From contig CAIIXF020000005.1 of NCBI GenBank assembly GCA_903813345.2, forward strand, positions 18,789,375 to 18,853,374: a stretch of DNA of 64,000 bases. Direction: 5' to 3'. Positions within the stretch are counted from its first letter, which is position 1; each line of letters opens with the position of its first letter. The notes below the pieces were generated by a model. It made no database searches and had not been told where the DNA came from. It was given only the letters and a program-made list of their open reading frames with translations. The translations under genes and the position numbers were made by a program. Below, piece after piece: positions 1 to 54,800 of this stretch. The DNA comes from Owenia fusiformis (Eukaryota > Annelida > Polychaeta > Sabellida > Oweniidae).

Positions 1-714
1 AGAAAGGCTATCAAACATAGAACAATCATTGTATGGAGAATGAAGTGATTAAATGTAGTAAGCAAATAATTCCATTTGATTTCACCCATTGTATTTGTTC
101 AGCGAACTATTAGAACCCACTCTGTTATACTAATTTCTAATTAATTTCTAATTTATACTAATTGCCATGCATTGATTTTCCTGTAAGTGAAGGGTAATAA
201 ATGCTCATTTTAACATTCATATGTGTTTGTAAATAATATATATGCTTTAAATTATATATTTTATTTTTTTAAATTATATAATTCAACTGATCTGCTCCGG
301 TTACGTTCCCAGCTCCGGTTACGTTCCTAAGTAATATTTTTAAAACTTTTTTTTTATTAAACAAATCAGAGTCGTGTGAATCAGAAAAAACAGAATTATT
401 CAATAGTATAAGGACTATTCTGTACTTTTTTCAAAAGTCTATACTTAAATGTTGTAAAAAGTTATAATCGAAAAACCATCTTTCGGAGTAAAGTCCGACT
501 GCGCCGATTTCAATAACTTCGTACTTGATCAGAACTGGGTTCCAACAGAATTCCTACAAACTCATGAATGAAATAGCCATTGCATGGAATACTTACTTTT
601 GTCAAAATCAAAGTAGAACTCTAGTTAAAAAATATATTGTGCTAAATTATTGCCATTTCTTAGTAAAATGTCGTTCTCCGGTACGTTGCCAAAATTATTC
701 GATGGTACCCCGTG
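1..714. other. AT-rich intergenic sequence, no gene seen
   Basis: No convincing coding sequence is visible. A short tandem repeat with a 17-bp unit containing CTCCGGTTACGTTCC occurs twice around 293-327, and a degenerate third copy sits near 676. The 64-codon frame at 525-719 has no recognisable features. From about 715 the sequence becomes homologous to the foldback-element interior described below. Confidence 0.5.
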
Positions 715-1800
715 GATAAGCTGTTACTTAACCAAACATATATGTCTACTTAAGATGGATCATTTTATGTCTTATCTTGATACTGATTTTAAATAGATTC
801 AATTTCAGAAACTTTCAGTCTAATGTATTACAATGTATTATGAATTCTCTACCTTTTCAATATATTGAAGCAAAATTAGATAGTTATAAAAAAGCAAGAA
901 TCAAAGGTCATCAGTACTTTTTAAAAGTAATGAGCTGCAAATAACTGGAGTTCCAGAAACATATCTATCTCCAAGTTTGCTTATTTGGAATCCAACTTCA
1001 ATTAAGGAACTCCATTGTAAAGAGTGTAATATCGCTCCAACTTTGGAAATTCAGAAAGTAAAAGTATTAGAAATATCTTATAGAACTGTTTTTGTTAACA
1101 TTTTTTGTCTTTTAGTGCAGTTGTTGTTGCTCCTTTCTACCAATTCTTGAGAAGGAAATAAAATGTCTTTCTGAACCTTGTTTGAATACAAAGGATTTTT
1201 TGGTTGATTTTAAAAAAGTATTCAAAAAAGTAAAACAAAACCCCCCCAAAAATAGATAGAAATCAAGATCAACCTTTTATTTCATTAACAAGATACTTTT
1301 TCAAAATCAACCAAAATTTCCTTTGTACAATTACAATATTGAGAGCCCTAAACATGTTGTATTTATGTCGTTTTGTTCCAATGAGGTTCAGAAAGATGTT
1401 TAATTTCATTCTTAGCATATGATACCAGGAACAAAAGAAGTGTTTGCTGTGTTTTCTAAAACAATATAGAGAAATGTATATAAATTTTTTTCAAATTATA
1501 TTGATACCATTCAAAAGATGACCATTAAATTGATGATGTGTAATATTTTTAGAATTTTTTGATGACCGATTTTAGAGAAACGTGTGTTCAAAATGTTCAC
1601 CATATTGATACCAATCCTCTACAGGTTCTCCTAAATATCCAGGACGTCAACTCTACAGTCTATATGGAAAGGTTAAACTTTTTGTGACTATGATAACAAA
1701 AAGATCAATCTTTATAATTTTCACATATTTTGTTTTACATTGTATATCAGATAGACATTGAAGTTCTGCCTAAATAAAATCTGGCTGTTCTTGAATTTAA

Positions 1801-2117
1801 CCCTTTCACGACGATGGGCTCCATATGGAGCCCTATTATGTAATACCTTTCAGGACGATAGGCTCCTTTTGGCACCATAATTTTTATTTATATACATCGA
1901 TTAAATGATGATATCTCCAGTTCTATTCAGTATTTTTACACCAAATTTTGACAAGTTGTTCTAATACGATAGTCCTTACTAAAAAATGTATTTCAGTGAT
2001 AAAATTCAAGGTATAGGTCCCTGGGCATAGGTAATTTTCAGTTTTCCCCTAAAAGCTGCTCTTACTTATCCGTCACCAGGGCCATCATTTTCCTCTTATA
2101 TTCACGTCGGGAAAGGG
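1801..2117. mobile_element. piggyBac-like miniature element with TTAA target duplication
   Basis: TTAA lies immediately on both sides (1797-1800 and 2118-2121). The ends are inverted: CCCTTTCACGACG on the left and CCCTTTCCCGACG as the reverse complement of the right. A perfect palindrome GGGCTCCATATGGAGCCC lies just inside the left end, and a related GGACGATAGGCTCC subterminal repeat follows. The homologous place in the second foldback copy (16194-16197, opposite strand) is a single TTAA without the insert, which directly shows insertion with TTAA duplication. TTAA targets and CCYTT-type ends are hallmarks of piggyBac. At 317 bp it is non-autonomous. Confidence 0.85.
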
Positions 2118-2406
2118 TTAAAGTGTTATGTAAACACGATAACTTAATGGCTATTAGATGACTCTTCCACCTACACCAGTCCAGTCTATACCATTAAACG
2201 TGCAATAAGAGAAGTTGATATAAAAGGTCAATATGATTATGTTTTAATTTTCTCTGTACACAACTTATATTTCCATGTTTTAAATCACATCTAAATGAGG
2301 TTTTATATAAGATTCATCCTCAGTGCTATCAACTCATGAAAGAGAATGGATCAAGATGAATCTTAAATGATTAAAATTTACTTTAAAATAGTTTACATAC
2401 TTTAAC

Positions 2407-2800
2407 ATGGATATTTCAAAATGGGAACTGGGGACTGGGGTCCAACTTAGAAGATACATACAAATACATATACTAGTATACACAAACATAGATATCTCAA
2501 ACTGGGAACTGGGGACTGGGGACCTTCTTAAAAGATACATACAGATACATACATATATATCACATATAGATACCTCAAACTGGGAACTGGGGACTGGGGA
2601 CCAGCTTAGAAGATACATACAAATACATACATACATATTATATATAGCATATAGATATCTCAAACTGGGAACTGGGGACTGGGGACTGGGGACTTTCTTA
2701 AAAGATACATACAAATACATACATATTATATATAACAATATAGGTATCTCAAACTGGGAACTGGGGACTGGGGACCAGCTTAGAAGATATATACAAATAC
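2407..2800. repeat. Minisatellite in foldback arm (copy A)
   Basis: Five units of roughly 75-90 bp, each with the core CTGGGAACTGGGGACTGGGG after a GATATCTCAAA lead-in. AGCTTAGAAGATACATAC and CTTCTTAAAAGATACATAC variants alternate in the spacers. One unit has an extra GGGGACT. The same array occurs in both arms of the element at 14517-21452. Long reading frames across it on both strands arise from the repeat, not from a gene. Confidence 0.9.
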
Positions 2801-3088
2801 ATACATATATAACATAACATACAATACACATATATCTCATAAATTAAAGCATATTCATAGATATCTCAATGTAGGATATTCATGAATTATTGTTATTTAA
2901 TTAACATATTCTATGCCAACTAATAAATTAATTGTTATGTATCTACTGTAGTTCTATATATGTATCTAGTCTATCTAATTAACATATTCCATGATTGTAT
3001 ATATATCATACATATATATAAATACATATAATAATGTATGTATCTATCTAATTTGCATATTCTGTGCAGGTTAACATGGCCCATAAGC

Positions 3089-5401
3089 CGAGAATTTGAG
3101 TCAACACAGGGGCTTTATGCAAACTACCTTCATGTTAGGTTTAACATTGTACATTCCTAACCCACTCTATTCTTCTCAAACCAATATACATGGATGGTGC
3201 AAGCCTTGACCGATCTGTAAGCAACATTAGCTGTTAACTCAGGCTTATTGTGGAAACCATAATGGGACATGATGCTTGCCCAATGAAAAACATGATTAGA
3301 GTTGTTATTGACCATTAATTTGATTAATATGCTTCCAGGTTCCATCACCCAAGTGTCTTTGGCTTTACTTGTGGCTATGATCTGGGGACAGCTGTTTGCT
3401 TGATGAGATGTAATTGGGGGCCATGCAGAATCAGCTACTATGCATGATGTATCAGCCTCAACTACAAATCTACTGAACAGTGTAGAATCTCAACTTTCCA
3501 ATTAATACGCACAAATGTCACATTTAATTTTTTGCAAGCTATTGAGCATAGAATAACTGAAACCTTGTAGATCAAGATGCACAAATGCACCCCTGCCCCG
3601 ACAAATACATCATTTGGGATTTCAGTCAAGGAATAGAGTGGACTGCCTTTCAAGGAATGACCCAAATACATAATAGTTCTAACTTTTTTTACCATTTATT
3701 GACCAATCAATATCTTGTATTTGGATTGAAGAACTAACAATGAAAAGTATTATCCATTAAATAAAGAATTTGACTTTACACATTTAAGGAAATGTAAGTC
3801 CCAAAAAATGAAAATGTAATATGTTGAATGTATAAACAATAGGAGGATGTTTATATTCTTGTTCTTGGAATAGATTTCCTAGTTTTACTGTTATTGCAGT
3901 AAGTGTTCTTAAATGATTCAGAATGCATTTTATCATAAAGTGATATTTTTGTAAAAATCTTAGTGAATGAATGAACGCTGGACGTGATTTTATATTTCAA
4001 AGTGTGTTCCTTTATATTTATTGATAGAAGCTATGTTATCATTCCAATTCTCGAACATGTACATATATATTGTAGAATATAGGCTACAGGGTGAAATAAA
4101 AATGTTGTACCCAACCCCAGAAAAAGGGTAACTGAATGTTCATACTTTTGGCCCACCCTATACATGCATTAATACTGAGTTATTCAGTATTTATTCAGTA
4201 GTTATTCCCAAGTGCTTATCATGGTAAAGAAATTGTGAAAATAATCTAATAATTCATTGTAATTTAATAAAATGTTGTACAAATACAATTATTGAGATAT
4301 GACTTTTATTATGTAAACATGGTAAACAACTTAGGTAATAAAGTTAATATATCAACTTTATAGAAATATTTTATGAGATGGGATATTTAAGTTATACAAG
4401 TACATTGTAGATCTGATTTTTGTTGAATTGCGATCCTATAGTGCAAAATAATATATAAGTACTGTCTTCAATTTACATGATGTGTGTTTTGTGTTTGTAC
4501 ATTCCATATTTAATTCTGTTCATATAAAGTGCAGTGTATATTGTAAAAGAGTCTTGTATTGTTGAAACTATTTTAAGAATTTATTTCCAACAGTGATCTC
4601 TGGTGCGGTATAAATAGTCGTTATGTAGTTTAGCTCATTTATAGACTAGGTGTAATCTTTGCTTCATTCTTTGGCTTCAGACAATCTAAATATTCATCAC
4701 TACACATTATATTTTCTAATTGATTCTCACCTTTTACCTTTGACCCTTCATTTTGAAACCAGAACCCTTTAAAGGAGTCTTAAATGAGCTTTAATATTCT
4801 GACTACCTTGTACCTCACCAGTCAATGCTAAAATTGTTTTTTAAATTACTGTTTCCAACAATACCCCTTACTTTATATTTACTGTTCTGCATGCTGATGT
4901 GCATATGTCTTAATTTTAGTTTTCTTGATTAAGAAAATCATGATTTAAACAAAATTACATGTTTCGTGTTATGCATTATCACAATGTTTGGTGCATAGTT
5001 AATTTCTTACTGGTATCTTATTGGCTCCTGATAAAAAGATGTGTATGCAATGCATTACTTATGACAGTTCTCTGCCATTACATACTGTACTTCTACTTAA
5101 TTTGGAGGATTTGTTGTTTTGAACATTTGGCAGAGTTTCAATATCACAATGCACCAATGGTACTAATTACATGGGAATAAAATTACCTGGAAATTTGGCA
5201 GACTATGAGAATTTGGCAGATGCGCCAAATTAAAATTGCTGCCAAATTAAGTAGAAGTACAGTAGGCGTATGAATTGCTAGTTATCAAAGAAGCATGCAG
5301 GGCCAATGAAGAACAAAAATACAAAACTTAACTAAATCTCATTGACAGAACTTACAGATATGAATTATAGAGAACAACATTTTTGGCACATTGAATTTTG
5401 G
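3089..5401. other. Intergenic region downstream of the 831-residue gene
   Basis: No coding sequence is supported. A short stretch at about 4094-4162 begins CAGGGTGAAAT and ends GGCCCACCCTA, resembling worn mariner-type termini. The 3' untranslated region of the minus-strand gene at 5402-7897 presumably starts here, but no polyadenylation site could be assigned with confidence. Confidence 0.45.
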
Positions 5402-7897
5402 CTATTTACTTTTACTAGCAATATTGGCACCTTCATTGATAGTAACAGTTTTCTTTTTCAAGCTTGATTTTCTTGGGTACGATGCCAATGCTGATGGCGC
5501 CCTTGTTGGTGAATCAGTTAGTCGAGTGGGTGATCCTCTGACTGACTCATCTAAAGGGGCCTTGGTAGAGTCATGGGGTGATGTCAATTCACTATTTGAT
5601 TCATCTTTTGTAATACAACTAGCGTCACCAGTAAGTAGTTTTTCAGGTGGTGGTTCATTCTGAGTAGGATTATCACTGCCAGCTATTGTAGCATCCACAT
5701 GTTTAGGCTTCTTGTCGATACTTGTATTGTGAGTGTCTTCTTGACCTATTGTTGGCTTAACAATGTATGCCATGCCTTCAATAACCTTGAACTTGGGTTG
5801 ATCAGTGGCTTGGATAGTTGTGTCTACAGCAACCGAAGAGTCAGTTAAAGTTAGGGTAGTACCATCAGATCTCCAAGAATAAGAGCTGAATGTAGAGTCA
5901 CGTCCAGTTTTCTCACTTTTTGCATCATCATTTGTGTCAACAGCTAGCAAGTCATTTGTAGGTATCGGATCACTTTGAGTTGGTTCATCTTTGTCATTTG
6001 TAGCTTGGGGTGTTTGTCCACCATAGCATGATTCAATGGTTAGGATTTCACCAGGTTTTGTGAGGTGGTATGAATGTGTGCGGAACTCATTGATTTTCTC
6101 TTCGAGTGTCATTGTGTTATCTCTGCTTAGGATATCATAAGTGAGATGTTTAAATGGGCCAGTACCATTAGATGGATCAGTGGTTGGATTCTTCAGATGC
6201 TTTGGAAGGGGCTGAACAATGTCAGTGTCTCTGTTTGATGGGGGCCATTTGTGAACCAAGCAGCTTTCACGAAATTTAGGTACACACCAGTAGGTCATAT
6301 GAATGTTAAGGTTCAGTCCATACGGCCACACCGTATCATGTTTGAGCATCATGTCATTCTCCAGTATATCAAGTTCATGTGGTTCAGTGGCATTAACAAA
6401 GCAGAAATACCACTCATCTGATGTAGTACATAGCAACAGGGTTGCCAGGTGACAATAATCGAGCCTTCCGATGAGGCAATCAGAGATCAAGACGCGACAG
6501 AACTCCAGGATATTATCAGTTTGGCCGACATAACGGAAGTATGGGATTTTCTTATGTTGGAAGCAGAAAACACCACTTTCAGCTATTCTATCAAACAGTG
6601 GTGTGCCAGTAGGGTACCATTCCTCTGCCTTCTCGAGCAGTAGTTCACGGAAAATTTTCAGATCAAGTAAACCAGGGTTAAACTTATGGAATGCTACATC
6701 CTCACTATGGCCCCACCAACCACTACCAAATCTCATATTTTTCCTGAATGTGTTATAGCTCTCTGGATCTTTAGAGGTAAAAGATTTTTGGTGGAATTCA
6801 TAGATTTTCTCAAGCTTTTCAGAGTCATTTTCCATAAATGCTACATCCCGTGATTTTATCTCTCTTACCAGATCATACATGGTTTTGACTTCTCTGTCAT
6901 ACCCCTGGAGGCCCCTTGGTATCCCACGTAGGATGAACTTAGCAAATACTGGATAGTCAATGTCTTGTAGGGTCTTAAGAATGGAAGCAGTGAGTGGGGT
7001 GAGATCTGCATTAGATGCTCTTGATATAGGTCTATCATCAGGACCAGATGTCATTGGAGGCCATCGATGTGACACACAAGATGTCATCAAATCATTCATT
7101 ATCTCCTTTTGGATGACTAACTCCATATTGGCTCCATATGGCCACAAAGTGTTATACTCAAGGATTGTGTCATTCAGGATTACATTGTGACGGTCAGTGT
7201 CACCTATTGGCAAAAAGAAAAACTCCCAATCTGTTGCCTTGGTGATCAGTAACAAAGTTTCAAATATTTGGTATTCTAGATTTCCAGAAAGTGCACCATT
7301 GATATGATTTTGGCATGTCTCAAGAATGTTATTCCTGGCGCATCCTGCAAACCTTACGTATGGAATATGTTTATGTTGAAAGTAATATACTCCTGGAGTT
7401 TCAATTTTAGTCCCAAATTCTAAGGATCGATCCTTAACATTGTACCATTGCATGGTTTTAAATACAAGAATTTTCTTAAATGTGTCTAAACGTGTTAAGG
7501 ACCCTCTCCCTTCAAACACAGTTTTTGGATTAGCACCCCACCAGCGACTATTCAATTTTGCATGCTTCATATGAGCTACGAGTTCAGTACCCTGTTTTCT
7601 GTTCAGAATCTTTTTATGAAGTCTGTGGATCTCCTCAATAGTTTTCCATTCATCATTTTCAAATGACTCGATGTGTGACATCACTTGCCTTGCCAAGTCC
7701 TGGAGGGAAGCCTCATCATCAGTCAGTGAAGTCTCATCTTGGCCAAAAAGCATCAATTTACTCGAGTGCCCAAAATCACTGAACACAGATCTGCCTGAAT
7801 GAGGACGTGAAATTGAGGAATTGGGTCGAGGAGATTTGGGCTCGGGTAAAGAGGTCCTAGATGATGATCGTGGAGGTATTGAGATGTCAGCAGCCAT
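5402..7897 (-). CDS. Duplicated-unit protein with GIY-YIG-like signature, family not recognised
   Basis: A single uninterrupted 831-residue reading frame, starting at the ATG at 7895-7897. Residues 1-60 are Ser/Pro-rich and probably disordered. Two related units follow, about 64-281 and 337-553. Each has, in order, an EIHRLH/KIYEFH-type helix, a WWG motif (119-121; 394-396), an aromatic-rich core, a GVY/GVFCFQHK strand (169; 442), a TLWPYG/TVWPYG motif (250; 522) and a closing HRWPP/HKWPP. In unit two, GVF is followed 11 residues later by YVGQTDNILEFCR, the spacing and pattern of GIY-YIG domains. In unit one the second half reads RFAGCARNN, so it is likely degenerate. Residues 600-831 are low-complexity and acidic, with a basic KKK patch near the end. 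No signal peptide or membrane segment is seen. The GIY-YIG link is inferred from a short motif; nuclease activity is not claimed. An intronless gene could be a retrogene or may have introns only in its 5' UTR. Confidence 0.85.
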   Translation of the reverse strand: MAADISIPPRSSSRTSLPEPKSPRPNSSISRPHSGRSVFSDFGHSSKLMLFGQDETSLTDDEASLQDLARQVMSHIESFENDEWKTIEEIHRLHKKILNRKQGTELVAHMKHAKLNSRWWGANPKTVFEGRGSLTRLDTFKKILVFKTMQWYNVKDRSLEFGTKIETPGVYYFQHKHIPYVRFAGCARNNILETCQNHINGALSGNLEYQIFETLLLITKATDWEFFFLPIGDTDRHNVILNDTILEYNTLWPYGANMELVIQKEIMNDLMTSCVSHRWPPMTSGPDDRPISRASNADLTPLTASILKTLQDIDYPVFAKFILRGIPRGLQGYDREVKTMYDLVREIKSRDVAFMENDSEKLEKIYEFHQKSFTSKDPESYNTFRKNMRFGSGWWGHSEDVAFHKFNPGLLDLKIFRELLLEKAEEWYPTGTPLFDRIAESGVFCFQHKKIPYFRYVGQTDNILEFCRVLISDCLIGRLDYCHLATLLLCTTSDEWYFCFVNATEPHELDILENDMMLKHDTVWPYGLNLNIHMTYWCVPKFRESCLVHKWPPSNRDTDIVQPLPKHLKNPTTDPSNGTGPFKHLTYDILSRDNTMTLEEKINEFRTHSYHLTKPGEILTIESCYGGQTPQATNDKDEPTQSDPIPTNDLLAVDTNDDAKSEKTGRDSTFSSYSWRSDGTTLTLTDSSVAVDTTIQATDQPKFKVIEGMAYIVKPTIGQEDTHNTSIDKKPKHVDATIAGSDNPTQNEPPPEKLLTGDASCITKDESNSELTSPHDSTKAPLDESVRGSPTRLTDSPTRAPSALASYPRKSSLKKKTVTINEGANIASKSK

Positions 7898-12319: not shown

Positions 12320-15300
12320 CTGGAAAGTATATAAGGAATGCTTTTAGTTCTATAACTACTACATATATTGCTACCAAATATGTTACAACTATATGGTCAG
12401 GTCAAATTCAGTATATGTGCAAGTAAATATCATAAGAAAATGAAAACTGATGAGTAATTTCATTGTTAATGTTTATTTCAAACTTGTCAATTATTACCAG
12501 TTTTGAATGGGCTTTACAATGGTATGAAGAATATAACATATAGAAAATGACGTCCTTGGCTAAATATGAAAATGTATTACACTGTAAAATAGCAAAGTGC
12601 AATTTATGAAGTAATTTAAAGGAAAAGTCACATTAGTAAGTTTGTAGGACAACATTTTTAACCATTGCTAACTTTTTTGAATTTTCATCTCATTTTTTCA
12701 AATTTCCACCAGGTATTCACAATATTTATGCCATGTACCTCCAAGAGTTTAGTAATATCATACAAAATTCTGAAAATGTTATGGCTGATAAAGGAGCATG
12801 CACCTTTTTTCTTTACAGAGGGTATATCTATGCAGTTTGAAGGAAAATAATTTGGGCGCACATAAAAAACTATAATTAGTAATAATAAGAAAAGATATTC
12901 CAACACCTTTTGGACTTGATAACCAAAGTTCTGTTAGATTGCACAGCATTATCCAAAAGCATTATTTACCTGAACATCAGCTATCTGGTCTAATAGTTTC
13001 TGTTTTTCTTCTCGTAAACTCTTTTCTATATCTGATATTTCAGGTTTTTCTTCAGGTTTATCAGTTTTCTCCTCTTTAGAATCAACATTTTCTTCTGTAG
13101 CAGTTGTTGACCAATGTCTGCTTTGTTGAGGCGATCTGAAGTCATAAATCTGGCAATTAAATAATTCATTTAGGCTATTTGCACTTAGTTAAAATAGGAA
13201 TTATTAAAATAATGATATTCTGACAAGCTCACCGGAGCAATGACCAAAAGAGTCCAACTGAATTTCTGAGTCAGGAATCATATTTATTCCTTCAACTTTC
13301 ACGCTTGATCATTAAGCAACTGAAGCTATCTTTTAAAAAAATGTTTCTCTTATATACATCCCTTATTTTATTTTCTGAAAATATACCTGATCAAATAATT
13401 ATCAAAGATTTTAAATGCAGAAATATCTAAATTTTATAGGAATTGAAAAAGGGACTCCATCCTTAATTTTTTAGCCGATAAGACAACGAATGATATAAGA
13501 TTTTAATGTTATTTAGAAAATCAGTCTCAACTCATCTTTATTCTGAGTCACAGGCTATGCAAGTTGAGCAGTGGTTTGTATATTTAATACTCCTACACAT
13601 CAATTCAAATGTATAGAAGTCATTATCAAATCTCACCCAGAAAAAAGCTGCACTCAAGTTCACTGATTGGTGTATCACTTTTTATGCATATTATATATCA
13701 GCAACATATCTTTTTGCAACATACTTAATTGAAGTTGATTATTGTTATCATCGAGTTCTTTTGTCAATTTCATAAGAAGTAGACATTTAGAAAAACATAT
13801 TTATTTCACAATTAAAGGCCAACGTTGCGTATTTTCAACATTTTTTGGGTAAAATAAAGACTTACATTTGAATTTCATTGTATATCTTTCATTTGACACC
13901 AACAACAGCTCAAACAGACCACATCAAAGCTTACAATAAATTATCAAAAAATATTTTCGATCTGCCAAGCCTTTACATATCAGGTTTTTATTAATGTCAT
14001 TGAAAGATGGCAATATTGTTTGTATTACATGATACATTCATTTTCATATAAGTGTCACCATATTTAGATCAACAGTAATTTAAAACATGCACTTTGTTTA
14101 ACATTTAAGAGTCGCAAAATTCCAAGAAAATTCCCCGGAATTTCAATGTTGACAATATTTTCATCCAGTACTGGGCGATAATAGGTAAAATAGTGACATT
14201 TCGAGATGAGAAAAAGAGAAATTAGATGAAAGATCGTAATTATGGTTTTAAAATGAACATTCTAACGAAATGGTAATTAGAAGCCAAAATTATCAGGCGA
14301 AGGAACAACCATGACTGATAGCGAAGTCAAAAGAGTGATCTTGTATGACAAATCAACAGAGGGGGAGATTTCCCAAAGAAGCTTTTTATATTGGCAGGCC
14401 TCATTTGCCATTGACATGAATTAGTTGAAATGAAATTAATTAATGTTCCCTGTTGTTTTATGAGTATTCTCTACAAGTTTGGATCGAGTAACTTCGATAG
14501 TATTACCGTAGTTTTGGCTTATGGGCCATGTAAACCAGCATAGAATATGCAAATTAGATAGATACATAATATCTATGTATTCATGCATATATATATTATA
14601 TGCCAGCACAGAATATGCAAATTAGATAGATACATACATTATTATATGTATTCATATATATGTATGATATATACAAGCATGGAATATGTTAATTAGATAG
14701 ACTAGATACATATATAGAACTAGATACAGAACAATTATTTATTAGTTGGCATAGCATATGTTAATTAAATAACAATAATTCATGAATATCTGATATATCT
14801 ATGAATATGCTTTAATTTATGAGATATATGTGTATTGTATACATGTTATATATGTATGTATTTGTATATATCTTCTAAGCTGGTCCCCAGTCCCCAGTTC
14901 CCAGTTTGAGATATCTATATTGTTATATATAATATGTATGTATTTGTATGTATCTTTTAAGAAGGTCCCCAGTCCCCAGTTCCCAGTTTGAGATATTTAT
15001 ATGCTATATATAATATGTATGTATGTATTTGTATGTATCTTCTGAGCTGGTCCCCAGTCCCCAGTTCCCAGTTTGAGATATCTATATGCTATATATATAT
15101 GTATGTATTTGTATGTATCTTTTAAGAAGGTCCCCAGTCCCCAGTTCCCAGTTTGAGATATCTATGTTTGTGTATATATGTATTTGTATGTATCTTCTAA
15201 GCTGGTCCCCAGTCCCCAGTTCCCATTTTGAGATATCTATGTCATATGTATTTATGTATCTTCTAAGCTGGTCCCCAGTCCCCAGTTCCCAGTTTGAGAT

Positions 15301-18300
15301 ATCTATATGTAGGTTTTTGTATTAAACATTGACAGACTATGAAATGAATATAACATCGTAACAAAAAAGTTTGGGATATCAAAAAAGTAAAGAAAATCGA
15401 TAATTTCCGGCGCGCTGATTGGTTGTATGCAAATGAGTCAAATCAATGATGTCAATGCCTGAAAGTTTTGAAGAATTAGTACAGCCAGCATAGGAATATT
15501 TTGAATTAACTGCAATAAAAAGGATTCTATTTGCCCAATGCACTAATTATTTTTAGTCAAATATGAAATATGGACGGGGCACTTTCATTCCGAATCTTAT
15601 GTAATTTAATTTAATCTTTTTTTGACAGAGCTATTGTTTATTAAGACTTCTCAGATCAGCCTCACATACCCGGGCTCATATGTCGTAGTAAGAAATTCCA
15701 TCAGAAATTCACCATGAGTAACATTCGCACAAAGCGTTACCTTTTGGTACTTATTCGCCATCAGCGATGTCAATAATGATCAGCAATGTCAACATATCAT
15801 CAATAAACATTGTATGATATACGCTCTTTCTCTGAAATCTTCCCAGTGATCATTATTCAAAACCGATCATCACATAACTAATTCATCTTATGAAAAGTGA
15901 GGTTTTACAAGTGACGTTTTCAGGACACCCTGCATATCCAGTTTTTTTTTTATTAAGCGTTCTCATTCTCATTATTTTCAAGAAATCCATCATCATTTTG
16001 GTTAAAAAAAATTATAGGGTCTGCTGGATCTATTTTGACAGTTTTGCTTTAGCAAGATACTTTTACAAATTGACTGTTTCTACACTGAATAATATATTAA
16101 CTTCTCTTATTACATGTTTAATGGTATAGACTGGACTCATGTAGGTGGAAGAGTCATCTAATAGTCATTAAGTTATCATCTTTACATAACACTTTAAAAT
16201 CCAAGAACAGCCAGATTTTATTTAGGCAGAACTTCAATGTCTATCTGATATATAACAAGATATGTGAAAATTAGAAAGATTGACCTTTTTGTTATCCTAG
16301 TCACAAGTTTAACCTTTCCATTTAGACTGAACAGTTGACATCCTGGATATTTAGGAGAACCTGTAAAGGATTGGTATTGATATGGTGAACTTTTTGAACA
16401 CACTTTTCTCTTAAATCAGTCATCAAAAATTTCTAAAAATTACATATTGTCAATTTAATGGTCATCTTTTGAGTGGTAACAATAAAATTTGAAAAAATGT
16501 ATATACTTTTCTCTATATTGTTTTAGAAAACACATCAAACACTTCTTTTGCTTCTGGTATCATATGCTCAGAATGAAATGAAACATCTTTCCGAACCTGT
16601 TTTGAACAAAACGACATATACACAACATGTTTAAAGGGTGACGATAAGCATCCCGTATAAAAACAATATGGCGGCTCCAGGCGAATCAACTGGATCAGTC
16701 CATTTTTAAGAAATAAGGGGAGTTCTGTAAAATCCAGTTTATTGAAATTGTCTTTGAGATAAAGTAATCCGTTTATAATGGTTTTGAAAACGTTATCCAT
16801 AGAGTGATTGCGTTCAAACAGTACATGTACAACAGCCAATACAAATCCTTGTATTAGAACTGCTTTGTTTCATTTGTAGGATATTTCATATGCCAAGCTG
16901 TGTGCTATTACGTTATGGGGAAATGTAGATGCCAATTTTTCCTTATTATACACAAATAGAAGATCCTGAAACTTCACCCATAAATTTGGAATTGATTTGA
17001 CAAAATAAAAATCACCCTTTTATAAATGTGTGACGATCTATAATATACTTAGGCTATATAACAGTTAGAGGTGTTGACACAACGACATCGAACCTGTGAA
17101 CCCTTGAGTATTATTCCGGGATCGGGCCTTTTATACTAAACGGTGAGCAACACCAGAAACGAGCGTTCGATTTGCTAAACGATATGCGTCACCCTTTAAG
17201 TCTCTCAATATTGTAATTGTTCAAAGGAAATTTTGGTTGATTTTAAAAAAGTGTTGATGAAATAAAAGGTTTATCTTGATTTTTATCTATTTTTGAGGGG
17301 TTTTGTTTACTTTTTTTCTAATTTTGCTTCAATATATTGAAAAGGTAGAGAATTCATAATACATTGAAATACATTAGACTGATAGCTTCTGAAATTGACT
17401 CTCTATTTAAAATCAGTATCAAGATATGATCCATCTTAAGTAGACACATACATGTATGTTTGGATAACTAACAGCTTATCAGCTTTATAGTGCTTCATAT
17501 AACTGTATAATTCTTTTCCAATCTGGAGACAGATTATTTAAGTTATGTAAGTTATGGGTTTGTCTCATTACTGTAGTCTTGACTGGATTAACTGTTTTCC
17601 TCTAGAAGATAGGTTTCAGGCTGATTCAATATATAATTCAAAGACAATTTTAAAGAGTTCTTAAAAGTTAAAGTTCTGTCAAGTCTGGAGTAAAGTTAAA
17701 ATTTCTATAATGAAATATGAAGTATAAAATATCTACATTGGAATCACTTATATTTTTAGACATACTATGACCATTGCCGCTTACCATTTTTGACCTATAT
17801 ACCTATCATAGGCGTAGCCAGGAGGTAGGGGCGATGACCAATGAAAATAAGAGCTTTAAAATGCATTTTGTTTGAAGCTTCTAGCTAATAGCAAAAATTT
17901 GGCGATTGGGACCCCCCCCCCTGGTCTGCTGGTTGCGCTAATGTCTTTTATTTCCACATATAGGGTAACTCAGTGAACTTAAATATACAAGTTTAATGTT
18001 AAACGTTGCTCTAAAGTTTGTGTAACTGATATCTACCTGGTGTGCTCATGTGGCCAGTATTAGATCAGATAGAGAAAAAATATAACACCTTCATTATGAA
18101 CTAGCAGCTCATACCCAAACAGAAGAATAAAAATCTGTACAAATTGATTGATGCTGTATGCCAAAAAAATAGGTTTTAAAATGCTCATAAATATTAGATA
18201 ACTTAAACATGCAATATACTGGAGTAATACTACTCAGATAACATTTTGGTTATTTTACCTTGATATTTGAAGACAATTGTTAAATACATAAATATTAGAT

Positions 18301-21300
18301 TTACAATTGTACTTTTTTGTTATAATGTTATTCACCTTTCCACAAAGTCAGCTCATGAATATTATAATGAGCTGCTTAGAAATCTTTGAGGTCAATGAGA
18401 GAAACTTTTTCCCGCGAAAAACAAATGTAATTGAGTTTACATGTAAATCCTCGGTTGATTGCTGTAAGTTTTGCCTCTTCAAATGTGCAAGTAATCAGTA
18501 AATTATTGACAGATTTTTATTGAAAGTCAAATTGGCATTTATTTACGCCTTCTAAGCGATTGAAATATTAAATTTCTGTTCATAATGAGTAAATAATTTG
18601 AAGAGAATTACTCCGGTCAGTTTTCAATCATGATAGGAACTGGATGTGAACAGGTGAAATTATCATAATGATTAGTTCACTAACATTATAACATGTCTCT
18701 CATGCATATAAATATATAGATAGACAATCTATTTTAAGTTAATCTTCAGTTGTCATTTGATGAATGACCTGTTCAAATGAAAAAACATTTGCTCTAATTC
18801 ATTAAATCATTGACTTCACTACTTCCATGATTCAATCAACTAAACGATTACTTCCTATTTATTTCTGCAAGTCATATCTGATCATATCTTGAAAATACTA
18901 TACTTGAAAACATCGGGATATATATAGATTATCCTATATGAGGTTCAGGATATTACGGCCCTCTGGCAGATATATAATATTGGCCATTGGCCAAGGGATA
19001 ATCCAAATATCTTGAACCGACTATAGGATGATTTGTTAATCCCATACCAATCACATTGTTCAATTGGCCAAAGTTCAGAAACTTTGCAACCAACCGTAGA
19101 ATTATTTTAAAATGTCCAGTTTTGTATTCCTGTTTCTTTTCCTGTTCAAATCTTTGATAATTATTATGCTCCTTCCCTTCATTAACGCATCAAACAGATC
19201 GCAATTGTCTGCGTTTTTCTCCATTGTGGTTTCGTTATGCGAACGTTACAAAAAAGAACCAATACGGGAACAGCGGTTATGACGTAGTGGGCAGATATAC
19301 TATATCTGAACTTTCAGAGCGGGACGTAAAGCTATATCTGCCCGCTGATGAAAATATAAGTTTTATCAAACCGGCTTTATGTACCCGTAACACATCCAAG
19401 TATGGGATAAAGAATTGATATCTTATATAGAGATTATCCTATATGAGGTTCAGGATATTGGCATTATCCCGAGGTAAATATAATATATCTGTCCGAGGGC
19501 CGCAGCTAGGTCCAGAGGGAAAATATATTATATTGGCCAAGGATAATCCCAATATCCTGAACCGACTATAGAACAATATGTTTATCCCATACCAATCTTG
19601 GTCATCTGGTTCACATTGTTCAATCGTGGAAATATTTTAGAATATTCATGTCCAGTTTGGTTTTCTTGGCCGTGGGCGGATTTTCCTGTTCTCTCAAATA
19701 TTCCCACATTTATTTTCTCGAATTTTTGATTGATTAAGTGGATGCTCCTTCCCTTTTTTAAACCTTCAAACAGATCCCGTAATATATACCTGTAACACAT
19801 CCAAGTAAACATATATATATTCCAATGTATATTTCCCGCTGCGTATCTCCCAATCCAAATATTCCCGGGAAAACGTTTTTTTATTCAGTGTAGAAACAGT
19901 CAATTTGTATAAGTATCTTGCTAAAGCAAAACTGTCAAAATAGATCCAGCAGACCCTATAATTTTTTTTAACCAAAATGATGATGGATTTCTTGAAAATA
20001 ATGAGAATGAAAACGCTTAATAAAAAAAAAAACTGGATATGCAGGGTGTCCTGAAAACGTCACTTGTAAAACCTCACTTTTCATAAGATGAATTAGTTAT
20101 GTGATGATCGGTTTTGAATAATGATCACTGGGAAGATTTCAGAGAAAGAGCGTATATCATACAATGTTTATTGATGATATGTTGACATTGCTGATCATTA
20201 TTGACATCGCTGATGGCGAATAAGTACCAAAAGGTAACGCTTTGTGCGAATGTTACTCATGGTGAATTTCTGATGGAATTTCTTACTACGACATATGAGC
20301 CCGGGTATGTGAGGCTGATCTGAGAAGTCTTAATAAACAATAGCTCTGTCAAAAAAAGATTAAATTAAATTACACAAGATTCAGAATGAAAGTGCCCCGT
20401 CCATATTTCATATTTGACTAAAAATAATTAGTACATTGGGCAAATAGAATCCTTTTTATTGCAGTTAATTCAAAATATTCCTATGCTGGCTGTACTAATT
20501 CTTCAAAACTTTCAGGCATTGACATCATTGATTTGACTCATTTGCATACAACCTATCAGCACGCCGGAAATTATCGATTTTCTTTACTTTTTTGATATCT
20601 CAAACTTAGTTTTTGTTACGATGTTATATTCATTTCATAGTCTGTCAATGTTTAATACAAAAACCTACATATAGATATCTCAAACTGGGAACTGGGGACT
20701 GGGGACCAGCTTAGAAGATACATACATACATATGACATAGATATCTCAAAATGGGAACTGGGGACTGGGGACCAGCTTAGAAGATACATACAAATACATA
20801 TATACACAAACATAGATATCTCAAACTGGGAACTGGGGACTGGGGACCTTCTTAAAAGATTCATACAAATACATACATATATATATAGCATATAGATATC
20901 TCAAACTGGGAACTGGGGACTGGGGACCAGCTTAGAAGATACATACAAATACATGCATACATATTATATATAGCATATAAATATCTCAAACTGGGAACTG
21001 GGGACTGGGGACCTTCTTAAAAGATACATACAAATACATACATATTATATATAACAATATAGATATCTCAAACTGGGAACTGGGGACTGGGGACCAGCTT
21101 AGAAGATATATACAAATACATACATATATAACATGTATACAATACACATATATCTCATAAATTAAAACATATTCATAGATATCTCAGATATTCATGAATT
21201 ATTGTTATTTAATTAACATATGCTATGCCAACTAATAAATAATTGTTCTGTATCTAGTTCTAACATATTCCATGCTTGTATATATATCATACATATATAT

Positions 21301-24300
21301 GAATACATATAATAATGTATGTATCTATCTAATTTGCATATTCTGTGCTGGCATATAATATATATATGCATGAATACATAGATATATGTATGTATACATA
21401 TATGTATCTATCTAATTTGCATATTCTATGCTGGTTTACATGGCCCATAAGCCGTAGTTTTGAACTGATGATGTTGAACTGATGTTAACACCATTACAAT
21501 GATTTCAAATTTTACTTTGCGCATGCGCAGCACTGAGAGAGCAAGTGCTCATGATTGTTCACGTAATCACACCCTGCTATTTGATTGGACATCATATAAT
21601 GGGGAACTGACAAATCAGCGAAAATCAATAGCCCCAAAATTTCAAACAAGGCATTAATGTGACAAAATGTCACCACCTAGTTGCTCACAATATTATTAGT
21701 TCAATCTTAAGTCAGATTTGAATTTTTGAGAATTCGGATATGATTTTGAAAAAGAAATTGGTCAATTTGAAGCAAGTTTACAAATTTCTTCTTCAAGTTT
21801 CTCAATAACACTGGATTGCCATTGACCTCTTACCAGATGTGCTAAAAGAAGTAAGTTGATTGAATGATAAGAATTAGTGTTCACTAGATACAGGTGTTCA
21901 CTAGAGAAGGTAGAGACATGTTTTACTACATACATTGTACATTGATAATCTAAGTGTCTGATATCATAAAAATACCGTGCAAATGTTATCATATGAATAG
22001 CCCATGACAGGAAATGCTGATTTTTCAAGAAAATTGATGCTTTTTCAATTTTACAAATTTCTTCTTCAAGTTTCTCAATAACACAGGATTGCCATTGACC
22101 TCTTACCAGATGTGCTAAAAGATGAAAATGTAATGATACTTTCCTGAAGAAATTGAACACAATTGAGTACTATCAGCTTTCAAATGACAGGAGCACAAGA
22201 GTGTTGGCAAACTTGGCGGAGCGCCTTTAGCCAGGTAGCCAATCAGATTTAAAGGCAAAACTACCATTTACACAAGGGGGGACGTAATACCCGGAACGTT
22301 CGCAAATTGGCATTCGTTTTTTTTACAGCATCCAATTTGAATAAGCCAATAAACATGATAGGGGTGTAAGAACTTGAAATTTATTCTGACGATGTGTCTT
22401 ACCCCCCAGTGGACATAAAGTCCAGAGCTGAATATGTCAGCACATGTTGATGATTGGTAAGTAAAAACAATCTATCCTTATAACTTAACATATTTTCTAT
22501 AGTTAAGTGAATTTCGGTCACGAACCATTCAGAAACAACAGTTAAAACGTAACATTATCCGGGTCAGATTTGATTGTACCACAATGGAAACCAATGGGGT
22601 TTTCTCATTTGCATAATCAGGTCACCTTAAACCGTGCTATAGAGCTGGGTAAGGGGGTAACATTGACAGAAAACACAATCGCCACTTCAAGTACATTTCC
22701 CTGTTTATTCTGTTCGTATCAAGCCGTTTTTACATGTCATATATTTAAGTTAATCAATTATGTAGCTCATGTGAACAGATTCCAATGCTATATAACTGCA
22801 AACGATACAGAAAAAGATACCTAGGTCTTAGAAAACCTACCCCTCTATACACCATTGTCTAATGAAGACCAAACAAAGCCCTGGATGTCTCGTTTGGTAC
22901 ACAACTAAGCCCTGAGTATTAAATAAGCAATTGATTTACAGAGTTCCTATGGTCATTGGTAAAATTAATTTGACCAGTCAGCACATAAGCTAAATTAGCA
23001 CATACAGTTAACATTTTTTTATGTTGAGAACAAGTTCATATTGTAAAAATAACAGAAAGTTATGATGAAACCACATATCTACTTACCAGTACGTTCTATG
23101 CCATCTCTCGAACTAGGTTACATTGTGAAACTCAGCTAAACACGACAGAAGGCAATATCCCGAGGTTATAAAATATTAATCGAAAAAAATTCCATTTCTC
23201 GATTTCCTGAATTGAACAAAGAAGCTTTTCAGAGATTTCAGCTATTTCTACTAAGATCAGTATCAGTATTTTGTTGCCTTCACTGTCGTGTTTGGCAATA
23301 TAACCTCGGACAAGAGATGACATACATACATTCAGAACATACTGATAAAAATAACAAATTTAACTGTAAAGCTGCAGTTTCATGGCTTTTTGTTGGGAAG
23401 TTAACAGGGGATTCAGTGGTATGGCTCAACAAAAAAGTCCAGTGGGATGTAATTGCACTATCCTATTGCAGCATCCCTCTTTGGGTCTTATTTTTCATGA
23501 TCAAAGTCACAAAAATCATTTGGAATTACTCGAGTCTCTAGCCAATTCTTGTCTAGAAGTGATTTCATCTGGAACAACGTGAACCATTTGAAAAAAGCTG
23601 GCTGTCGTGTTATAAATTCATCAAATAATTTAAAAATCGTCAGATAAATAAATCATGAATTAAAATGAAACTGGCTGAGCTCCTTGATGAGATATTGCAT
23701 GATTTCGTCAGGATTTCATCTAAAATAAAAATAAATGGCTCTAAGAAAAATGGCGATATCCGAAAACTGGACGAAATGTCGTTATTGTCTGACATTAGTA
23801 ACTGACTGTAAATTCTAAGTTAGCGATCCAGAAGATGTGAACTAATACTTTGATCACTTTAGGTGCGTTTTGGGATTTTTGGTGAGGTAATAAGACCAAA
23901 ACTCACAATTCAAATTGTGATATGGAAAAACGGCGAACATTTGATTTCATATTTTAGGATTATGAAATAACCTGTATATAGCAGTAAAGAACATGCAGGG
24001 ATTTATCTTTGGACGAAGGCCATGATATAGTGGCCTTAGAAGAAGGTAAATTTGGAACACTGTCAGTAAAAGCAAAATCAATAGATTAGCCCTATCCCTA
24101 CTAATGATACTTAAGCTATAAAAATAACTACAACGATGTCGTAATAAATGATGGAACTTTGATCATAATTATTTCAATTCAAAAATTAAAAATTTCGATA
24201 AATTTCCCCAAAAATATTTAATACACACATTTTACACCTGATTGAGTGTCCTATGATTTTGAAAGTTTGTGGACAATAAAAATACATGTTTCTAATTTGT

Positions 24301-42800: not shown

Positions 42801-45800
42801 ATGCATATTTGAGTGAGTTTGACATAAATTAGTATGTTAATCCATCAGCCGTCCGTTGAATTCGAAAATGGCGCAAATAGGAAGAAACTTGAATATCAGT
42901 TGTAAGCATCGTCTTACGACACATCAATAGTGTTTGGGGCTGGCCTAAAACATGCAGCCTCTCTGTGGCAAATATCTGTCGACAAGAAACAATTTTGGCC
43001 ACCGTTCCTTGTCCGCAGGTTTTACCGTATTTGTATACGGAAGTTTTGAAACGTAATTAATTCAACATATTTAAACATGAAGTTTAAATTCAATTCAATT
43101 CAATTTCAATTTCAAAATAATTTATTTCAGTTTTCATTACAAAAATTACAACATTATACAGGCTATGACACCCCAGGGGGTGTATGACTGCCCATAATTA
43201 AATTTACAATAAACATGATAAACTGTGAACATTTAAAGTGGTACATAGGTCAATACAATAATATAATATAAATACAATATACAAATACAATAATATGAGA
43301 CAATAAAGAAATGAAATAAATGTTTTGGTTACTCTGTACTCAGGAGGTCAATTTTCAAACGAGATATGAGTGAATTTAATGGTTTATTTCTAATATCTTC
43401 ATTGAGGGAATTCCATATATATGAACCATGGACCTTAATAGAATTTTCACCAATTCTGGTTCTATGTTTAGGAATATCTAAGTTATGACCAAATCGAGTT
43501 ATACGTTGATGTATGTTTTCTCTAGTTTTGAAATAGTGATCGTATAATTTTGAAGGGAACTGTACAGATTTGCTTATAACTTTTTTCATGAATGAAACAG
43601 TTTGGATTGTGTGAATATGATAAATATTAAGTATTTTAAGATCTTGAAAAATTGGGAATGTGTGAGCTAATCTATCTGAATTTGTTATTAATCTAACAAA
43701 TTTCTTTTGCAATATCAGTAGTTTATTTAATAGATTCTTAAAAGCATTTCCCCATAAAATATTACAGTAATTAAGATGAGAAAAAATCAGAGAGTTATAT
43801 ATTATCATCTTTGAATTTAAAGTATGAGCATAATTTGTTCGATATAACATTCCTATAACATTTGAAACTTTTCTATGAAGAGCATTGATATGGGGAGCCC
43901 AAGATAATTTTGAATCAATAATTACTCCCAGGAATCCTATCTCATCTACTTTTTCAAGGTTAGAATTTGCAATTTTTATTTCATTGTTCACAGATATATT
44001 TCTTTTATTTCCAAAGACCATGTATTTTGTTTTCTTAACATTTAAAGTGAGTTTATTGGCCAACAACCAATCATTGATGTCACACAGTTCAGAATTTACG
44101 GTTGTGGTCAAATTATCAAGATTGGAATCACTACATAATATATTAGTGTCATCCGCATAAATCACCAGTTTGAGTTTATCAGAAACTAGATAGAAATCAT
44201 TTACAAATATGATAAATAGGAGGGGGCCTAGAACAGACCCTTGGGGTACTCCACAGTTAACGATTGCTTCTTCAGACAAATATTTCTCGGATAAACTTTT
44301 AGAGTATTCAGTTTTCATTTTTCGATTTGATAAATAAGATGAAAACCATGAAAGTGCAATTCCTCTTATACCATAATGTTCCATTTTTTTAAGTAATATT
44401 GCATGATTAACAGTATCAAAAGCTTTTGATAGATCCAAATATATTCCGATACAATATTCTTTGTTATCTAATGAATGTCTGACATTTTCAATAAATTCTA
44501 GGAGTGCCATGTAAGTTGATCTATGTTTCCGAAAGCCGTACTGGTGTAAATACAATAATTCATATTTCTCTAAAAAAGTAGATACTTTGTCATGCATTAT
44601 TTTTTCAAACATCTTAGCAAATACACTTAAAATAGATATTGGTCTATAGTTTGTGAATTTATCATGTTCCCCCTTTTTGAAAATTGGAATAACTTTAGCA
44701 AGTTTAAGTTCTTCAGGAAAAATACCTGTGGTCATAGAGAGGTTATAAATGAAAGTAAGAGGATCAGCTATATGATCATGTAATACTTTAACAACCTTTG
44801 GTTTAATATCATCAATGGCTGCGGCTGAGTCCTTTAAGTTCTTGATTTGATTTTGGACAGTATTAACATCAACAGGTGCCAAGAAAATTGAATTAATATT
44901 ACGTTCGATTTTATTAACATTATCAAGTGGGTCTTTATCAGAGTTAATTTCATTAGCTAGCTTTTCACCAATTGTGCTAAAAAATTTATTAAAATTGTCT
45001 GCTATGGATTTTCCATCATCAATTTTTCTTCCTTCATGGATAAAATTATCATTAAGGATCTTCTTAGGTTGTTTACGTTTTAAAATAGAGTTTATTACAT
45101 CCCAGGTCTTTTTTATATTGCCATTGCTAATTTCAAATTTTTTCTTATAATGAAGCTTTTCTGCATTCCTGATAATATGATTAAGTCTATTTTTATAATT
45201 AGTGTAAGTGAGTCTATTTTCATCAGTTGGACATTTTTTAAACTTAATATATAGTTTATTTTTCCTCTTAGCTGAAGTAATAATACCCAGGGATATCCAT
45301 GGTCTTTCTAAGTTAGAGTAAGTTTTGACAGTTTTAGTTAATATTGGGAGACATCTATTGTACACCTCAGTAAATTTGTTAATTTGTTACACCTAAATTC
45401 CAGAAGTCTTCCGAAGAATAAGTGGAAGTTTGATCTTATGCAGTCATTAACAAAACATTCCTTCTCTGTTATTGCTATGTCTGAGACATGGCTTAACACG
45501 GAAAATGAAGCCAATTTTCAATTAACAGGATATAATTCTGTTTTTAAATCCAGAGTTGGTATTAAGGGAGGTGGAGTTTGTATATATATTAAGGAAAATA
45601 TCATTTTCAAAGAACGTCATGATCTTACAATGAATTTAAATTCCTGTGAAAATGTAACAATTGAAATTACTCCACCTAATGGTAAAAATACTTTAGTATC
45701 TGCTATTTATAAGCCTCCAAATTCTAATTTGGCTATTTTCAATGATGAATTTAATGAATTCTTAAATAAAGTCACATCTGAAAAAAAGCCAAGTTATTTA

Positions 45801-51800: not shown

Positions 51801-54800
51801 TTTTTACATCGTTCTGGTCCATTTTATAACTTTGAGCCTTCTCCATCTCTATCCTGCAATGCAACAAAGAGAGATGTTTACATGTTTAGTTTCAAAATGG
51901 ATAATTTGGGTTGTTATAAAGTATATACATGAATCAAATATCCATGAATAGGTAACAAACACAACATAGTAAAGTCACAAAAGGTCTGTTGGTCGAGATT
52001 ATATAAGAGATCACTATCAAGGTCAATCGAATCATATTTCACATTTTTGAAATCTTAGTGTCTTGAGATCTATAGAGGTCATAGTAGGTAAAAGACTTGC
52101 ATAAAGTTCAAGGTTAGATGTATTTGATTTGTATCAATTTTTCAAAACACAAACAAGAATTTTCATCAGTGCTTGATGGGAATAAATACTCTGTAATCAG
52201 GAAGAAGCCATCTTGAATTGCCAATATATGAAGAAGAGGGGGAGACCCCAGAAACCCCAGAGTTCAACGATGACATACGCTTATAATGTAAATCTGTATT
52301 GAGATGACATCGTCGCTGATTGGTTTAGCGAGTCGATCGTTGATTGGTTTAAATTAAGTCAATTTGAAAACTTTGAAAACCAAGATGGAGGATATTCCGG
52401 GAAAGGATGTGCGTATGTCATCAATTGAATCATGGGGTTTCCCTCCTCTTTGTATGCAGTTTTCATAATTGAAAATCAAACTGGTAAATCATACTGTGAG
52501 TGGGAAAAAGCATGGTCAGCCAACATTCATCCACTAACCATGTTTGTTCTGTATTTTCAGTCGATAAAGGCTATGTCCCCGGAGTTCATAGCTATACACT
52601 GTCAGGAAGTGGGGGGCAAGAACTATGAAGAATCGATGCAATATGTCAATGCATTTGTCAAGTAAGTATACTATTTATAGCATTCACAAAATATATGCCT
52701 TTCACTCAAACTTGAATTATATTTAGTAGTTTTTTACAGTATTGAATGTAGCTTGCCTCAGAGAATACTCATTGATCTCTTTAGTGAAATTCATCTCACT
52801 TGAGAACAAGTCTTAATAATATGATCTGATGTAAATATACAATGTTATATTAAAATTGGAACTTGACTAATCCAAATACCACTGGGACTGACCAAAAATG
52901 TTCAGATTGGCAGGTTTTCACATTTGGAGATTTTTTAACATATGAATCCATGGTAGATTTAAAGATGAGACCAAAAGTGTTCATATTGAGAGGTATTTGG
53001 ATATACAGGTTTTACTTTGTTATCATGACAACTGAATAAACTGAAAAAATTAAATTTGATATTGTATAGTCCATGCCAGTGGGGGAGATTTCCCAAAGAT
53101 GACCTGTAGTATTCGGCATGTTCAATGACCAATTTTATAAACAGGCCTCATTTGCTATTGAAATGGATCTCACTATGTTCGCTGTTGTTTATGAGTATTC
53201 TCTACAAGTTTGGATTGAGTAACTCCAATAGTACTACAGTAGTTTTGAAATGATGATGTTGAAATGATGTTTAACTGAAATAAACGCCATTTCCACGATT
53301 TGAAATTTTACTTTACGCATGCGCAGCACTGAATGAGCACATGCTCATGATTATTCACGTGATCACATCCTGCAATTTGATTGGACGTCATATAATGGGG
53401 AATCCCCGAATACGATAGAATATGAAAGAATTGTGGGAGCTACTCACTTCTTCTGGTTCATGCAGTCAGTTTCATGAACAGTTTTTTTCCCATTGTTATA
53501 TACAGTGAAACCTGTATTTCCAAACATCTCTCTAATTTGAACATCTCTCAATGTGAACATTTTTTCTCAATACCAAATTTGTTATCTCCATTAACTCACT
53601 TATTTAAAAAAATGAAATGTGAACTGCTAATCCAAACAGTTTTGGCTGGTCCCAAAGGTGTTTAGATGGAATAGACAGATTTTACTGTATACCCGTACAT
53701 CTATTATAGGGGTATGTTGGCAAGTGATGAACTCCAGGAGTATGACAGAGTCAGGGTATTCCTGGATGAGGACTTCACAGCCCAAGACAAGTTCACAGTA
53801 AGTTAACCGAGAGACTGGGAGAAGGTGTGAATAAAGACAAAAAATGAGTTGACATGGTCGAGGCAATATTATTATACTATAATTTGACTTCGTTTTCATG
53901 GTTTCTGAAAAAATGTCTGCACAAATATTATTCTGTAAAATTTTAGCGAGGCACTTGCCTCACGCCTGGCTTTGCGGGATGGTTTGCCAATTTATATTTA
54001 AATGGTTATATGATATTACAAAATATATAAAGGCAAAAAGAAAAAAGTGCTCTGTAGAACATTGAACAACCATTTATTATTACTTTGTTTCAGACTATTC
54101 ATTAAATGTATACAAGTTAATAGGAGACATGACATTAGCCTTGTAACACAAAAGAGATCAATCTAAGTATGTTTGCTGATATAGGTAAATCAATATACTT
54201 TTTGATATAGTTTATTTGAAACATGCAGATTTATTGTTCACCAATCATGTCAAGTCTTCATATTTGTTTTTTCAGGCTTTAGGCAATCTCTATTTTATCC
54301 ATGAATCTGTGAAGTCTGTTGAAACCTGGGACTTTGACGGTGAGTCTTTGTAAATTCTCTACTTGTATCAGTACAAACTCTTGGTATTTCATTAATTAAT
54401 ATTTGAGTCCTACTACATTGACTTGTATCAGGAGAAGGGAAAGACCATAAGCCTTCTCTTTCAAAATGGTAGATGATAAATGTCAGTTTTGATATTTTGA
54501 GTTTTCATTTTGGACATAGGGCTTTGACAGTGCATCATGTCATCTAAAAATGGAACTATTTATCAATATGCAGAGTTTCTATGTCATGCAAGTTTGACGT
54601 GGTTAAAATTTCAAAAGTCGAGTGTCTACAGTAGTAGTTCAGTTCAATCAAAATTGAAATTATCACAATGAACACTTACATACACAATCAACACTTACAT
54701 ACACAATCAACACTTACATATACAATCAACACTTACATACACAATCAACACTTACATACTCAATCAGCACTTACATATACAATCAACACTTACATACACA

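Follow-up and report, generated by a model that had tools for sequence, protein, structure and literature searches.

The window considered here is the whole 64,000-nucleotide stretch of the Owenia fusiformis genome at C5:18789375-18853374, and the searches described below covered 498 Mb of that genome. It carries a large transposable element made of two long inverted arms around an interior, bordered on both sides by the same short duplication of its target (Table 1). In structural terms this is a foldback-like terminal inverted repeat (TIR) DNA transposon, with long arms, tandem repeats within these arms and a duplication of fixed length. The original prediction, made from the window alone, had described a foldback-like transposon that lacks a transposase, bears tandem repeats in the arms and is flanked by a target duplication, and that description is supported. 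The element belongs to a new non-autonomous foldback-like family, of a kind already known. Its long symmetric arms are secondary, a modification private to the window copy among those seen, and most likely arose fairly recently by copying one end of the element over the other; the earlier view that arms of 1.57 kb are original to the element is thus abandoned.

Table 1. Features of the window, with the strand given where one applies.
Feature	Position	Strand	Remarks
Whole element	14516..21453		6938 bp; ends GGCTTATGGGCC...GGCCCATAAGCC
Left target-site duplication GTAGTTTT	14508..14515		8 bp
Right target-site duplication GTAGTTTT	21454..21461		8 bp
Left arm, 1577 bp	14516..16092	+	inverted copy of the AGCATA end, where most copies carry the AGCACA end
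Right arm, 1573 bp	19881..21453	-	AGCATA end of the family, in its usual place
Interior	16093..19880		no Pfam match at E 1 (six frames, X at stops)
Subterminal tandem repeat, left arm	14537..14716		period of about 71 bp
TIR minisatellite array, left arm	14847..15308		6 units, at most 1 mismatch to the 25-base core
TIR minisatellite array, right arm	20671..21127		6 units, at most 1 mismatch to the 25-base core
Junction of duplicated end and interior	16092..16093		30-base string across it (at most 3 mismatches) at 1 genomic place
Nested inverted-repeat insert, about 560 bp	16635..17194 (approximate edges)		ends AGGGTGACG / CGTCACCC (GGGTGACG), TTTAA adjoining
Uninterrupted paralogue of the target repeat	53083..53402	+	single GTAGTTTT at 53239-53246
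Right part of the second family copy (L034)	1..3089		whole copy 6695 bp; duplication GAGAATTT
Open reverse-transcriptase frame	43329-45365	-	RVT_1, 3.6e-36
Endonuclease fragment	45384-45869	+	1.2e-08

The arms are 96.2% identical in a single gapped inverted alignment of 1598 columns, while another count of the arm alignment gives 17 mismatches in 1596 columns and a second alignment 14 substitutions plus 5 insertion or deletion (indel) events. The inverted arms and the interior had already been recognized and stand as described, but with lengths of 1577 and 1573 bp instead of 1576 and 1572 bp. When the flanks of the element are rejoined with one duplication, they align to 53158-53402 with 83.4% identity over 247 columns, and beyond this main alignment 22 of 23 bases match at 53077-53099. 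The target repeat is dispersed in the genome, with at least 41 matches (the best 40 of 805 candidates were scored). Since the interrupted sequence is one of many dispersed copies, 53083-53402 is a paralogous empty site and not an orthologous empty allele: the “pre-insertion site” first proposed there is indeed the repeat that was interrupted, but in a paralogous copy. At the window locus alone, duplications of 8 and 9 bp look the same. The length is set at 8 bp because 27 of the 29 paired copies found in the genome show exactly 8 bp beside their GGCTTATGG ends (L038 matches at 7 of 8 positions and L024 at 5 of 8); the length given earlier was 9–10 bp, and its 10-bp form, CGTAGTTTTG, takes in the last C and the first G of the element.

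Copies of the family are numerous. The whole-arm search of the genome gave at least 66 matching places (the best 40 of 392 candidates were scored), and a search with the terminal 27 bases, 3 mismatches being allowed, gave 64, against 0 for the reversed control. With the terminal 20 bases and the same tolerance there were 81 matches (reversed control 12), 65 of which are family ends, 59 of them exact over the 20 bases and 6 with one mismatch; the 16 matches with 2–3 mismatches were left out of the end count. These 65 ends resolve into 29 pairs, one rearranged cluster of 5 (C6:16336052-16339867, partly in L036), which was excluded from the paired copies, and two single ends (L039 and L040) that retain only about 100–200 bp of family sequence. 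The original prediction had raised the question of whether copies elsewhere share termini and 9-bp duplications: the termini are shared, but the duplications are of 8 bp. The window itself holds two copies, L034 and the element at 14516-21453, which lie 11.4 kb apart, and the large contigs C8, C11 and C12 hold 0 of the 65 counted ends.

The two ends of a copy are usually of different types, AGCATA and AGCACA being combined in 20 of the 29. Rarer pairings are TGCACA/AGCACA (4 copies), TGCACA/AGCATA (1) and AGGCTA/AGCACA (1), and AGCACA is found at both ends of the 278-bp L041. Only the window copy and L022 carry AGCATA at both. Among the 22 other copies measured, 21 have TIRs of 472–917 bp with 67–93% identity, and no single end-to-end TIR alignment was obtained for the remaining one, L010. 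Every TIR except those of L041 contains minisatellite units, mostly spaced 66–85 bp apart. Of 319 genomic units with at most 1 mismatch to the 25-base core, 298 fall within the elements compared, and all 100 minisatellite places among the matches listed sit inside paired elements.

How the window copy came to differ is best seen by comparison with L017. Read inwards from the right end, the window copy runs collinear with L017, bar indels; its left 1577 bp match the right end of L017 in inverted orientation, after which the alignment resumes at position 1180 of L017. The 1179-bp AGCACA end of L017 is thus gone, and an inverted 1577-bp AGCATA end stands instead. The outer 791 bp of the left arm are 89.7% identical to the left end of L017, and positions 1-1169 of that arm are 84.7% identical to the right end. 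As the outer arm consists of TIR and tandem repeats, the case for replacement of the end rests on the stretch beyond the TIR. There, 27 of 30 elements (L017 counted) have all or some of the 294 bp that adjoin the AGCACA end of L017; the window copy, L036 and the 278-bp L041 have none of this stretch. The 30-base string across the junction occurs nowhere else in the genome (control 0), and no clear microhomology was seen at 16092/16093. Over their inner 405 bp the two arms diverge by 0.49%, whereas among 11 other copies the smallest divergence is 2.2% from the left arm and 2.7% from the right. In the spacer at 196-335, both arms are equally near several other ends. Read together, the unmodified relatives, the private junction, the inner arms being less diverged from each other than from other copies, and the duplications place the end-over-end conversion after the divergence of the family. 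Of the elements compared, only L024 and L026 share the nested insert at 16635-17194 with the window copy, and it marks a subgroup.

Long inverted repeats are hard to assemble, and the private junction depends on one assembly, so an artefact has to be considered as the source of the symmetric arms. We hold this to be very improbable, as the arms differ from each other (by 14 substitutions and 5 indels), the flanks on either side bear one and the same duplication and form parts of a single repeat, and 28 further paired copies exist. An artefact giving rise to the element as a whole is excluded by these 28 copies, 26 of which have exact duplications of their own.

No transposase was found in the family, either in the frames read in 28 of the 29 copies (the 278-bp L041 was excluded) or in a six-frame Pfam search of three of the 29 interiors. 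Stop-to-stop frames reach at most 153 amino acids (aa) in 23 copies, and of the five further pairs only L14_33 (1247 aa) and L034 (169 aa, within the TIR repeats) have longer ones. The Pfam search matched only a nested Mos1-type helix-turn-helix (HTH) domain in L018, with a weak HTH_23 match at the same place; it sits in an insert private to L018 and was rejected as the family's transposase. The 16.3-kb L14_33 (L014 and L033 joined) was likewise rejected as a transposase-bearing copy, its length being due to an insert left uncovered by the 29 other elements. The 1247-aa frame of this insert looks gag-like, with zinc knuckles recognized by eye. Since no transposase was found, the copies look non-autonomous.

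We regard the element, with considerable confidence, as a non-autonomous, foldback-like cut-and-paste DNA transposon whose AGCACA end was replaced by an inverted AGCATA end, probably through break repair. Duplications of 8 bp are what insertion at a cut with an 8-bp stagger leaves behind, and there is hardly any variation in the terminal 20 bases. These 20 bases would be recognized by a transposase acting in trans, to which the TIR minisatellites may offer extra binding sites. The AGCACA end would have been broken, at its edge or within it and most simply in the course of excision, and the repair would have used as its template the opposite TIR, either of this copy or of a close relative. Synthesis would have run about 0.7 kb beyond the shared TIR into interior sequence, and the new tract would have been ligated to the existing interior with no clear homology between them, lengthening the TIR to 1.58 kb.

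Several points weigh against this account. Both the mobility of the element and the break-repair step are deduced from sequence, the transposase is missing from what was read of the family, and L024 has no intact duplication. An identical anatomy would result from template switching during replication or from conversion by another copy. In the arm stretch 800-1165, the window arms differ from each other by 1.6%, and the left arm is nearer to L026 (0.67%), L012 and L14_33 (1.0%) and L024 (1.4%) than to the right arm. When differences over 800-1577 are polarized against other copies, 7 of 8 substitutions and both indels turn out to be right-arm changes, with 1 substitution in the left arm. This excess would fit either more change in the right arm since the event or a left arm derived from a related copy. 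Several of the 7 right-arm substitutions behind this asymmetry are C to T.

Long inverted arms built on tandem repeats are also known from the TU elements of sea urchins and from FB/NOF of Drosophila melanogaster, whose likeness to the family is one of general description. The sea urchin foldback is cited in PMC4079207. Closest in its modification is Galileo, a member of the P superfamily in Drosophila, whose extended “2RT” copies have gained TIR length from sequence adjoining one TIR, copied in inverted orientation, an extension explained by its authors as conversion running past the TIR (PMC3573991). Galileo shares with the present family long TIRs, internal tandem repeats in some of its subfamilies, and the occurrence of the longest TIRs in non-coding copies, but it makes 7-bp duplications and has copies with transposase sequence (PMC3573991), whereas here duplications are of 8 bp and no such copy was found. 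Tetris, a foldback of Drosophila virilis, is also non-autonomous, with tandem repeats in its TIRs and no transposase found, its three-domain TIRs reaching 1735 bp and its duplications 8–10 bp; its 220-bp repeats also form satellite-like arrays (PMC4079207), unlike the minisatellite units here, 298 of 319 of which lie inside elements. Tm1, a Mutator/Foldback family of root-knot nematodes, has composite TIRs, tandem motifs, asymmetric terminal motifs and non-coding members as well, but differs in its mostly 9-bp duplications and in one copy with a MULE (Mutator-like element) transposase (PMC3169594). Searches of the literature for annelid foldback elements and for the 12 terminal bases gave no match, older subscription papers lying outside their scope. 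The origin of long-arm foldback elements is still discussed; the annelid case appears to show the process known from Galileo in flies. It is also a warning that arm length is unsafe for classifying foldback-like elements.

Which superfamily supplies the transposase is a more tentative matter, for which a source outside the P-like and Mutator-like groups ranks first, a P-like one second and a Mutator-like one third, each below even odds. A P-superfamily element, analogous to Galileo and moved by one of the genome's own P-like transposases, is a possibility suggested by the anatomy and the TIR extension. The duplication of the P element is 8 bp, and the 8 bp seen here agree with the 7–8 bp of this superfamily, but equally with other superfamilies. 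The genome has 13 places matching PF21787 (TNP-like_RNaseH_N), a domain that we take to be linked to P-type transposases, but the shortest distance from any of them to an exact copy of the 12-base end is 503 kb. P and Galileo termini start with CA, whereas those of the present family start with GG. The 7-bp duplications of Galileo also argue against this affiliation (PMC3573991).

The original prediction had instead drawn a link to MULEs, and a Mutator/Foldback family (MULE, Phantom or Rehavkus-like) moved by a MULE transposase would agree with the statement that most foldback elements belong to Mutator, the 8-bp duplications falling within the 8–10 bp range of Tetris and Tm1 (PMC4079207, PMC3169594). 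The genome does contain 8 places with a MULE domain. However, 27 of 29 copies have 8-bp duplications, without the 9-bp mode of Tm1 (PMC3169594), the six frames of the three interiors contain no MULE domain, and each of the 8 places is more than 650 kb away from the nearest exact 12-base end. This link is consequently doubtful and, in the form proposed, not supported.

For a hAT element, the 8-bp duplication is the point of agreement. Elements of the hAT superfamily make 8-bp duplications of the pattern nTnnnnAn and have CA or TA termini. The 27 exact duplications, read on both strands, are A/T-rich, with a preference for A at the first position and for T at the eighth (30 of 54 each), A (27 of 54) or T (17 of 54) at position 2, and a preference for G or C two bases outside (34 of 54); the hAT pattern is not seen in them, and the termini start with GG. 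No hAT transposase was present in the three interiors scanned, the genome itself not having been searched for one, and membership of this superfamily is highly improbable. For Merlin, 4 weak PF12762 places (IS1016/IS1595-type) were found, each separated by over 3.6 Mb from the nearest exact end. Taken as a whole, no MULE, Merlin-type or P-like match lies within 500 kb of the 74 places with the exact 12 bases, a comparison that partners with different termini would escape. It is unlikely, if rather less so than a hAT affiliation, that the transposase moving the family belongs to none of the superfamilies tested, makes 8-bp duplications and acts on GGCTTATGGGCC ends, with the window copy representing one step in the birth of a foldback, in which a single end-over-end conversion makes a large symmetric hairpin out of an element with asymmetric TIRs.

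Four of the P-like matches (C2:10986184, C4:29370493, C10:19101834 and C11:2203561) agree exactly in score and span and contain open frames of 227, 452, 591 and 591 aa; they are perhaps a young P-like family in this genome.

Some terminus-like strings were set aside. Out of the 74 places with the exact 12-base end, 61 are family ends and 12 (in the 11 loci L042-L052) diverge directly after the 12 bases and were rejected as chance matches or unrelated repeats, although one in L050 matches a few bases further; the remaining place, on C308, was outside that comparison. A search with the 10-base end gave 407 matches (control 111), with no new inverted pair visible by eye among the first 100 listed. 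The 20-base string GGCTTATATGACATGGAAAC and its kin, allowing 2 mismatches, matched 345 times against 7 in the control, the family's own ends included, with GGCCTACGTGACATGTAAAC as a second variant among the first 100 matches listed. A sister family with ends of the GGCTTATATGACATGGAAAC type was rejected on two short examples only (L053 and L054), in which the string lies inside a longer inverted repeat and so is not their terminus.

An Rfam scan of the window at gathering scores gave no match. Outside the element, an intronless open frame of 831 aa (5402-7897, minus strand) lies between the two foldback copies; it shows an internal duplication by eye and has no Pfam match at E 0.1. Finally, a LINE-type (long interspersed nuclear element) sequence at 43329-45869 consists of two opposite pieces 18 bases apart, an arrangement resembling a 5′ inversion of the twin-priming type.

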